Below, piece after piece: positions 29,577 to 33,206 of a stretch of DNA of 64,000 nt. The stretch is from a bacterium (GTDB lineage Bacteria > Desulfobacterota > Desulfobulbia > Desulfobulbales > Desulfobulbaceae). Positions within the stretch are counted from its first letter, which is position 1, and each line of letters starts with the position of its first letter. The stretch covers positions 82,654-146,653 of the forward strand of contig JAUNUN010000001.1 in assembly GCA_030538155.1 (NCBI GenBank), given 5' to 3'. The position numbers and the translations under genes are program-made. Below the pieces are notes generated by a model. It ran no database searches and was not told the DNA's origin. It was given only the letters and a program-made list of their open reading frames with translations.

Positions 29577-30956
29577 GTGGAAGCACAGCACGAAATCCAT
29601 ACCCAAGCCCACATTCCCCTTGCCGAGCGCATGCGCCCAGCAAGTCTTGCCGACTTTGCCGGTCAGGAGCATCTGGTGGGCGAGGGACGCTTCCTGCGGC
29701 AGATACTGGCCAGCGACAAGCTCCCTTCCCTACTCTTCTGGGGCCCGCCGGGCTCGGGCAAAACCTCTTTAGCCAATTTGCTCGCGCACGCAACCTCGTC
29801 TCATTTTGTGTTTTTTTCCGCGGTGCTCTCCGGGGTCAAGGAAATCAGGCAGATCGTGGAACAGGCGCAGACACTGCGGGATACGGAGCAACGCCCCACC
29901 ATCCTCTTTGTTGATGAGATCCACCGCTTCAACAAGGGTCAGCAGGATGCCTTTCTTCCCCACGTGGAAAGCGGCCTGCTCACCCTGATCGGCGCGACCA
30001 CGGAAAACCCCTCCTTTGCCATCAATCCGCCGCTGCTGTCGCGCTGCCAGGTCCTGCTTTTGCAGCCGCTGGAACCTGAACAGATCAAAACAGTGCTGCG
30101 CCGGGCCTTGGAAGATGCCCAGGGGCTGGGCGAACTTGGCCTGGTTATCGATGAAGAGGCCCTCAACTACTTGGCCGAAGCTGCGGATGGCGACTGTCGC
30201 CGCGCCCTTAACTTCATTGAAAATGCGGCTTCACTGTCCCTTGAGAGGAACAAGGCCAATGCAAGCGATCGTGGTTTAGCGCCGCCGGGTTGTATCGATC
30301 TGGCCTCCGCCCAGGAAGCGGTGCAGGAACGCACCCTGCGCTATGACAGCGATGGCGAGGAACACTACAACCTGATCTCCGCCCTGCACAAAAGCCTGCG
30401 CGACAGCGACCCGGACGGAGCGGTCTACTGGCTGGGCCGCATGCTCATTGCCGGAGAAGACCCGCTCTACATTGCCCGCCGCATGATCCGCTTTGCCTCG
30501 GAGGATATCGGCAATGCCGATCCGCAGGCCCTGCAGATCACCCTCAACTGCCGGGAAGCCTATCACCTGCTCGGTTCGCCCGAGGGCGAGTTGGCCCTGT
30601 ATCAGGCTGCGGTCTATCTGGCCACGGCCCCCAAGAGCAATGCGGTTTATGCGCTCACCTACAAGGTGCGGGCCGACATCAAGCGCACCGGCAGCCTGCC
30701 GGTACCGCTGCACCTGCGCAATGCGCCCACTAAGCTGATGAAAAACCTGGGCTACGGCAAGGGCTACCAGTACGCCCATGACGACCGCGAGGCCCTAGTC
30801 AGTCAGGAGCATCTGCCGGAGCAGTTGGTGGGCACCATCTACTACGAACCCAGTAACCGGGGCTATGAGGCCCTGGTGCGGGAACGTTTGCACAAGTGGA
30901 GACAAATCCTCAAACAACGAGCCGCACAGCATGAAAGCACAAAAAAAACATCGTAA
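29577..30956 (+). CDS. rarA: Replication-associated recombination protein RarA (MgsA)
   Basis: 459 residues of an AAA+ ATPase. PLAERMRPASLADFAGQEHL is the family start, Walker A is WGPPGSGKTS, Walker B is ILFVDEIHRF, sensor-1 is LIGATTENPSF, and the C-terminal domain has DPDGAVYWLGRML and YIARRMIRFASEDIGNADP. RarA is a tetrameric clamp-loader-like ATPase at stalled forks. The start is a GTG at 29577 with no strong ribosome site. The following selenoprotein gene starts inside its 3' end. Confidence 0.92.
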   Translation: MEAQHEIHTQAHIPLAERMRPASLADFAGQEHLVGEGRFLRQILASDKLPSLLFWGPPGSGKTSLANLLAHATSSHFVFFSAVLSGVKEIRQIVEQAQTLRDTEQRPTILFVDEIHRFNKGQQDAFLPHVESGLLTLIGATTENPSFAINPPLLSRCQVLLLQPLEPEQIKTVLRRALEDAQGLGELGLVIDEEALNYLAEAADGDCRRALNFIENAASLSLERNKANASDRGLAPPGCIDLASAQEAVQERTLRYDSDGEEHYNLISALHKSLRDSDPDGAVYWLGRMLIAGEDPLYIARRMIRFASEDIGNADPQALQITLNCREAYHLLGSPEGELALYQAAVYLATAPKSNAVYALTYKVRADIKRTGSLPVPLHLRNAPTKLMKNLGYGKGYQYAHDDREALVSQEHLPEQLVGTIYYEPSNRGYEALVRERLHKWRQILKQRAAQHESTKKTS

Positions 30957-31944
30957 CCGTCACCATCCCGTCCTGTTCAGCCTGCTGTTTATTCTCGGCC
31001 TTGGACTTGGCCTGCTGCCGCAAGCGCTGCACGCAAAGACGCTGCGCATCGTCTACAGTAACGACAATCTGGGAGAACTTGCGCCCTGCGGCTGAGAGCG
31101 GAACAGAATGGGCGGTCTGTCCAAAAAATCGACTTTTATCAGCAGTATCCATACCACCACTACACCGGCCCTGTTGCTTGATGCCGGTAATATGCTCTTC
31201 AAAACGCGCAGCCTGCCCGGCGACAAGAGGGAGGCAGAGGCGGCGCGTATTAGGGCCAGGGGGCTGGTGGCGGCCAACCGGCAAATCGGGCTTGGCTTTG
31301 CCGGTATCGGTACAAACGATCTGGCAGCAGGACCGGCCTTTCTCAAGGACATTAGCGGCAAGGACTTTACCTGGCTTTCCCTGAACCTAGTTGAAGAGAA
31401 GAGCGGCCGGTCGCTTTTTCCGGGCTCCACCAAGGTGCAGGCCGCCGGCTTAACGATTGCCGTCTTGGCAGTGACAAACCACGAAAGTGCTGCCGCAGCC
31501 GTAGCCAATGGCGGCAGCTATGGCATCCGGCCATGGCGGGAGGTACTTCCCCAGCGCATAGCACAGTTGCGGCCGGAGGTGGATATCCTCATCCTGCTTT
31601 CCAACTACCCGCTCAGCGAAAACCAGGAAATAGCCAGGAGTTGTCCGCAATTGGACATGATTTTCCAGTCCGGTTTTGCCATGGGCAATCTGCCGCCGCT
31701 GGCAGCAGGCAATGCCCTGATCAGCCAAACCGAAATCAGGGGCAGGTATCTGGGACTTCTTGAAATAGACTGGCAGGGGCACGGTCCTTGGCAGCAGCGG
31801 GCACGAGGTGCAACTGGCAGCAGAACTGTCGGCTCAAGCTTCAACCAGCGTTTTATTCCTTTAAACAGCGTTATAGCCGACAATCCGGCCATGGATGCCG
31901 TCGTTCAACGAATCGAGCAGCAGGCGCGGGCCGCAGCCAACTAA
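30931..31944 (+). CDS. Probable selenoprotein: secreted 5'-nucleotidase/metallophosphatase-like protein with in-frame UGA (Sec55)
   Basis: One 337-residue frame interrupted only by a UGA at 31093-31095 (residue 55). Residues 1-35 are a signal peptide (LLPQALHA|KTL). Then IVYSNDNLGELAPCG comes directly before UGA, and ERNRMGGLSKKSTFI after it. Related UshA/5'-nucleotidase-like proteins, as I recall them, read NDxxGELEPCGC...LGGL, so the UGA stands where the second cysteine belongs. Both halves are in the same frame and together form one fold (LLLDAGNMLF, GIGTNDLAAGPAFL, NHESAAA, DILILLSNY). A stem-loop that fits a bacterial SECIS follows (separate entry). The ATG overlaps rarA by 26 bases. The alternative is a nonsense mutation, but the downstream frame stays open for 283 codons with good coding character. 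The usual GxH metal motif near residue 250 is missing, so the enzymatic role is uncertain. Confidence 0.85.
31093..31123 (+). promoter_or_regulatory. UGA codon and candidate bacterial SECIS stem-loop
   Basis: After UGA (31093-31095) the bases TGGGC (31109-31113) pair with GTCCA (31119-31123), one pair being G-T, around the loop GGTCT (31114-31118). The two loop G lie 19 and 20 bases after UGA. This is the loop sequence and the spacing that I recall for the E. coli fdhF SECIS, which SelB recognises. Lower-stem pairing is weak, as in many minimal SECIS elements. Confidence 0.8.
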
Positions 31945-32192: not shown

Positions 32193-33113
32193 TCAGCAGC
32201 CAAAGGCCTTCTGCAGGTTGGGAACGGTCTGTTTCTTGCGGCTCATCATGCCGTCAATCCACATGGAATTACCGGCAAGCTTGTTGTCAAAGGCCTTTTC
32301 AATCAGACCATCGTCATCGGAAATGACCATCAGGTCGGTCCCTTCCTTAACAACATCGGTGAGCATCAGCAGAACAGTGTGGCGCTCGCCGCCCTTCTGG
32401 GTCTTCATGGCCTCGTACAGGGCTTCACGCATTTCCGCAACCTGATCCAGGGTGGCCAATTCGAGCTGGCCAACGCCAACCTTCTTGCCGTTCATGTCGA
32501 AATCTTTGTAGTCGCGGTGGAGCAGATCCATGGCAGGTACACCGGCAACCGCACTCTTGGCCTTGAGCATCTCCATGAAGAGTTCTTCGGTATCCTGTAC
32601 TCCGGCAATCTCCTTGAGTTCCTTCACTGCCTTTTTGTCGGCCTCGGTGCAGGTAGGAGACTTGAAGTTGACGGTGTCGCTCAGGATGGCAGCCAGCATG
32701 ATACCGGCAACCTTGGGGTCGACCTTGACGCCTTCCAGATCATAGAGAATCTTCAGAACCGTACAGGTACAGCCAACCGGCATATTGAAGAAAAAGATGG
32801 GCTGATTGGTGGTGACATCGCCGATCTTGTGGTGGTCAACCACTGCCACCAGTTCACCGGCACCCAGATTGTCCGGGGCCTGGGCAAGGTCGCTATGATC
32901 TACCAGCGCCACTTTCTTGCCGGTGGCATCGGTCATGGTTTCAGGGGCGCTGAAACCGAAGCGCTTGAGTACCATTTCCGTTTCCGGATTCGGCTTGCCC
33001 TGCATAACAGGAACATAGTCCTCGCCCTTGGCCTTGTTGAAGGCGGCAAAGGCAATGGCGGCGGCAACGGAATCAGTGTCTGGACTCTTGTGACCAAAGA
33101 CATAAACAGACAT
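32193..33113 (-). CDS. ppaC: Manganese-dependent inorganic pyrophosphatase
   Basis: 306 residues, DHH family II pyrophosphatase. FGHKSPDTDSVAAAIAF, VALVDHSD and VAVVDHHKIGD give the Mn/Co ligands, SDTVNFKSPT follows, and the C-terminal SRKKQTVP is the DHHA2 phosphate-binding motif. It hydrolyses pyrophosphate to two phosphates. The start is the ATG at 33113, seven bases after a perfect AGGAGG. In this lineage it can replace or complement a membrane pyrophosphatase. Confidence 0.93.
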   Translation of the reverse strand: MSVYVFGHKSPDTDSVAAAIAFAAFNKAKGEDYVPVMQGKPNPETEMVLKRFGFSAPETMTDATGKKVALVDHSDLAQAPDNLGAGELVAVVDHHKIGDVTTNQPIFFFNMPVGCTCTVLKILYDLEGVKVDPKVAGIMLAAILSDTVNFKSPTCTEADKKAVKELKEIAGVQDTEELFMEMLKAKSAVAGVPAMDLLHRDYKDFDMNGKKVGVGQLELATLDQVAEMREALYEAMKTQKGGERHTVLLMLTDVVKEGTDLMVISDDDGLIEKAFDNKLAGNSMWIDGMMSRKKQTVPNLQKAFGC

Positions 33114-33206
33114 ACGGCATCCTCCTGAATAGTTGATATCAACGTAACTTGCACTACCTGCTGGTACGCTTGGGCAACAGCCCACTGCAAACAATAAAAT
33201 TTATTT

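Follow-up and report, generated by a model that had tools for sequence, protein, structure and literature searches.

The gene at positions 30931-31944 of the 64,000-nucleotide stretch of DNA analysed here (the window) encodes a member of a selenoprotein family that has been known since 2008 and is modelled by NCBI, in a form that lacks the tetraheme domain found in most of its relatives, the longer ones. Comparative sequence evidence strongly supports reading its in-frame UGA as selenocysteine (Sec), and we hold recoding, family assignment and fold assignment jointly with high confidence. The recoded stop is thereby confirmed in a gene that scores a few bits under the annotation threshold and would probably be truncated by annotation. 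The family is widespread and comprises tetraheme and heme-less forms, in which the partner Cys of the Sec is tied to the hemes, and this tie offers a concrete handle on the family's role.

The translation is a single frame that ends in a stop codon and is split only by one TGA, preceded by GELAPCG and followed by ERNRMGGL, as the original prediction had read it (Table 1). Its start overlaps the 3' end of the upstream gene by 26 nt. We take this upstream neighbour to be a rarA/mgsA-like AAA+ ATPase gene, and the convergent neighbour to be a ppaC-like pyrophosphatase gene. Among the operon partners of the selenoprotein gene, we found none that points to a substrate. The N-terminus reads as an export signal and forms a helix at residues 13-27 in the AF2 model, which agrees with the secreted protein that had been proposed; the gene product would be exported to the periplasm.

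Table 1 Features of the selenoprotein locus, in positions of the window
Feature	Position	Strand	Basis or remark
rarA/mgsA-like AAA+ ATPase gene (presumed)	29577-30956	+	Conserved upstream neighbour (synteny)
UshA-like selenoprotein gene, heme-less form	30931-31944	+	337 aa, Sec = residue 55
Signal-peptide-like N-terminus: basic region, hydrophobic helix, LHA cleavage-like site	30931-31035	+	Sequence reading
UGA codon, predicted Sec of the PCGU motif	31093-31095	+	TGA in 22/23 genus members covering the codon, TGC in one
Putative bacterial SECIS hairpin, 5 bp stem, loop GGUCU at 31114-31118	31109-31123	+	Fold, plus loop codons conserved in the UGA homologues but not in the Cys ones
Manganese-dependent inorganic pyrophosphatase-like gene (ppaC; presumed)	32193-33194	-	Conserved convergent neighbour (synteny)

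The AF2 model of the protein (pLDDT 86, pTM 0.85) finds its best PDB matches in UshA and other 5'-nucleotidases, and also in SoxB (Foldseek E 1e-14 to 1e-17, TM 0.62-0.71), and a sequence profile search returns the same proteins. This similarity in both fold and sequence would be expected if the protein were active as a metal-dependent 5'-nucleotidase or thiosulfohydrolase, with Sec assisting catalysis. However, the UshA residues D41, H42, H43, D84, N116 and H117, taken together with the His of the LSH motif as its metal ligands and catalytic residues, align with D45, N46, L47, N87, T128 and N129 here, and the LSH His of 2z1a with Asn 225. The first Asp is all that is retained of the two-metal ligand set of UshA and SoxB. 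A working dinuclear metal site is accordingly unlikely on this alignment, and since the site has decayed, hydrolase activity has probably been lost; we consider an active enzyme of this kind improbable. The description '5'-nucleotidase-like' in the original prediction thus holds for the fold, but for the chemistry it is probably wrong. What further sets the protein apart from UshA and SoxB, despite the shared overall fold, is the Sec itself, which the model places in a loop that directly follows the first strand and adjoins the former metal site. The model is least reliable in this loop, with pLDDT <50 at residues 49-52, just before the Sec.

The genome holding the gene (2.88 Mb, 99.8% complete, 100 contigs) encodes SelA (616 bits), SelB (372 bits), tRNA-Sec (73 bits) and SelD (365 bits), the full set of genes that had been proposed as a check on recoding. 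The SelD gene (L100, contig C76:68174-69121 of the same genome) has an in-frame TGA as well, and SelD is probably a selenoprotein itself; Sec is therefore probably in use elsewhere in the genome. A homologue of the UshA-like gene is present in 24/24 genomes of the genus, and where the codon is covered it is TGA in 22 of 23 and TGC in the remaining one (G037), with TGA conserved across 37-61% protein identity. The alignment bears out the expectation of either Cys or UGA in this column among homologues, as seen in the TGC of G037 and in tetraheme homologues. Loss of selA as the route to the Cys form was considered and rejected, given that G037 retains selA. Downstream of the UGA the sequence is under purifying selection, judged by comparison with the two closest relatives (dN 0.31 and dS 2.45; dN 0.37 and dS 1.75).

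The predicted stem-loop is also present, with the letters GGGC-GGTCT-GTCC and with its two loop G at 31114 and 31115, at the originally described distances of 19 and 20 bases downstream of the UGA. The published bSECIS model has a loop of 3-9 nt with a G early in it, 16-37 nt from the UGA (PMC13188914), and the loop here has 5 nt, opens with G and begins 18 nt past the UGA. The case for the hairpin comes from the homologues, because these conserve both the TGA and the codons of the loop in the genus and the order, far above background codon use. Among 60 homologues with UGA from the order, a set that includes one duplicate, the loop codons are GGC in 60/60, GGT in 57/60 and CTG in 60/60, against frequencies of 0.47, 0.17 and 0.39 elsewhere in the same genes, whereas they vary in the Cys homologues (n = 13). 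The exact core GGCGGTCTG occurs in 41/47 distinct UGA segments compared with 3/13 Cys segments (Fisher p 2e-5, a statistic that ignores relatedness), and the Cys-bearing relative G037 has lost the hairpin. The folding energy is no better than that of shuffled sequences (z -0.87), and a comparison with Rfam models at E up to 10 gave no match. Two heme-less homologues (L135 and L136) keep the UGA with deviating SECIS codons (GGA GGT CTT and GGC GGA CTG, respectively) and are possible natural tests of SECIS tolerance.

The locus could instead specify two proteins, a short secreted peptide that stops at the UGA and a second one made by re-initiation at the ATG at 31108, which lies 12 nt past the UGA in this genome and opens a listed open reading frame, 31108-31944. 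Yet ATG occupies this position in just 2 of the 60 UGA homologues, the other 58 having the Leu codons TTG or CTG; the Cys homologues are single frames, and the two parts make up one fold. TGA conservation, the frozen loop codons, purifying selection and the Leu at the 31108 codon make re-initiation very unlikely. A sequencing error, or a nonsense mutation in a gene undergoing decay, might be suggested by the 100-contig assembly and the degenerate metal ligands. This reading has next to no probability and is already refuted by the same TGA in 21 relatives across the genus; in addition, most of the order has it (nearly all of the order matches listed carry one TGA), selection persists 3' of it and the SECIS codons are frozen. 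The preference for recoding over a nonsense mutation in the original prediction is thus upheld, and the adjacent downstream hairpin would direct SelB with tRNA-Sec to decode the UGA at 31093 as Sec.

The claim that the selenoprotein is unrecognised and unusual does not survive. A UshA-like CxU selenoprotein (COG0737) was already reported in 2008 in the GOS metagenome survey (PMC2398784), and two reviews, from 2022 (PMC9312934) and 2026 (PMC13188914), list the family. The GOS proteins share the CxU motif and the COG0737-type fold with the protein here, but come from marine metagenomes. The NCBIfam model NF041198 (UshA-like (seleno)protein, UshA_like_PCGU) finds matches in 227 of the 258 genomes searched in the order, and matches the protein here with 1.1e-79 and 268.4 bits, below its cut-off of 275. 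The agreement covers the Sec or Cys of the PCG[U/C] motif, the SECIS codons, the N-terminal domain (best stretch, profile positions 17-276) and the gene neighbourhood; the difference is the C-terminal tetraheme domain, which the protein lacks, so that the full 519-position profile with its heme part is not matched. The cut-off does not require the heme part, since six heme-less relatives in the genus (L057, L058, L060, L061, L068 and L074) pass it with 277.6-301.3 bits. Because 268.4 bits fall short of 275, annotation may miss this copy, and the splitting or truncation by standard annotation that had been anticipated could indeed occur. A second model, NF049981 (UshA-like (seleno)protein family 2), represents a related N-terminal fold that is likewise listed as a selenoprotein, but its motif is CxxU in the review table rather than PCGU, and the protein here scores 42.5 bits, below the cut-off of 140. 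A Pfam search with the selenoprotein sequence gave no match.

Long members of the family (about 490-650 aa) have four C-terminal CxxCH motifs in every form examined, in a region that matches the cytochrome c554 and c7 Pfam models, and no member of the UshA-like family in the genus has any CxxCH. Heme-less forms also occur in further genera of the family and order. Both forms have rarA upstream and ppaC downstream and therefore occupy the same locus, which makes loss of the heme domain the simpler reading of the two forms. In the nearby open reading frames of at least 90 aa at the heme-less loci examined, no CxxCH was found that would mark a cytochrome gene replacing the lost domain. All 53 distinct tetraheme sequences read PCGU or PCGC at the motif, whereas 14 of the 45 heme-less sequences have no Cys two residues before the Sec (for example, ASGGU, GSGU and PRGGU) but still keep the Sec; some of these 14 retain a Cys at least three residues before it. 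The difference between tetraheme (L026-L055, L080-L099) and heme-less forms (L056-L079, L121-L145) has a Fisher p of 5e-6, based on counts made by hand and on a statistic that ignores relatedness. The protein at 30931-31944 keeps PCGU, including this Cys. We found no earlier description of the C-terminal tetraheme domain of the long members and its absence from this genus and several others, nor of the Cys loss among heme-less forms, although the heme-less form may have been noticed before.

In this calcineurin/5'-nucleotidase-type fold, the first strand leads into the Sec loop and the metal site has decayed. The selenol would be the reactive group of a periplasmic protein for redox or for sulfur/selenium handling; electrons would pass between the CxU site and the fused hemes of the long form, and in the short form a separate partner would supply electrons in place of the hemes. 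By analogy, a redox role of the selenol is possible, and we advance it tentatively. A simple C-U selenylsulfide is argued against in 14/45 heme-less homologues, given that the CxU Cys is gone. In the heme-less branch, Sec might act alone as a nucleophile or ligand in a degenerate metallophosphatase pocket, without a resolving Cys, an idea that we regard as rather unlikely. If Sec does act in this way, the site took on a different chemistry through losing the tetraheme domain, and the Sec-alone, heme-less branch would be a distinct mechanistic class inside a known selenoprotein family.

Sec and Cys paralogues of the UshA-like family occur together in each of five genomes (G239, G242, G243, G254 and G257; loci L080, L081, L082, L084 and L085 with L055 and L090-L093). 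Elsewhere in the window, a probable surface polysaccharide cluster spans positions 34154-59567, with a long series of genes for glycosyltransferases, acyltransferases and related proteins.
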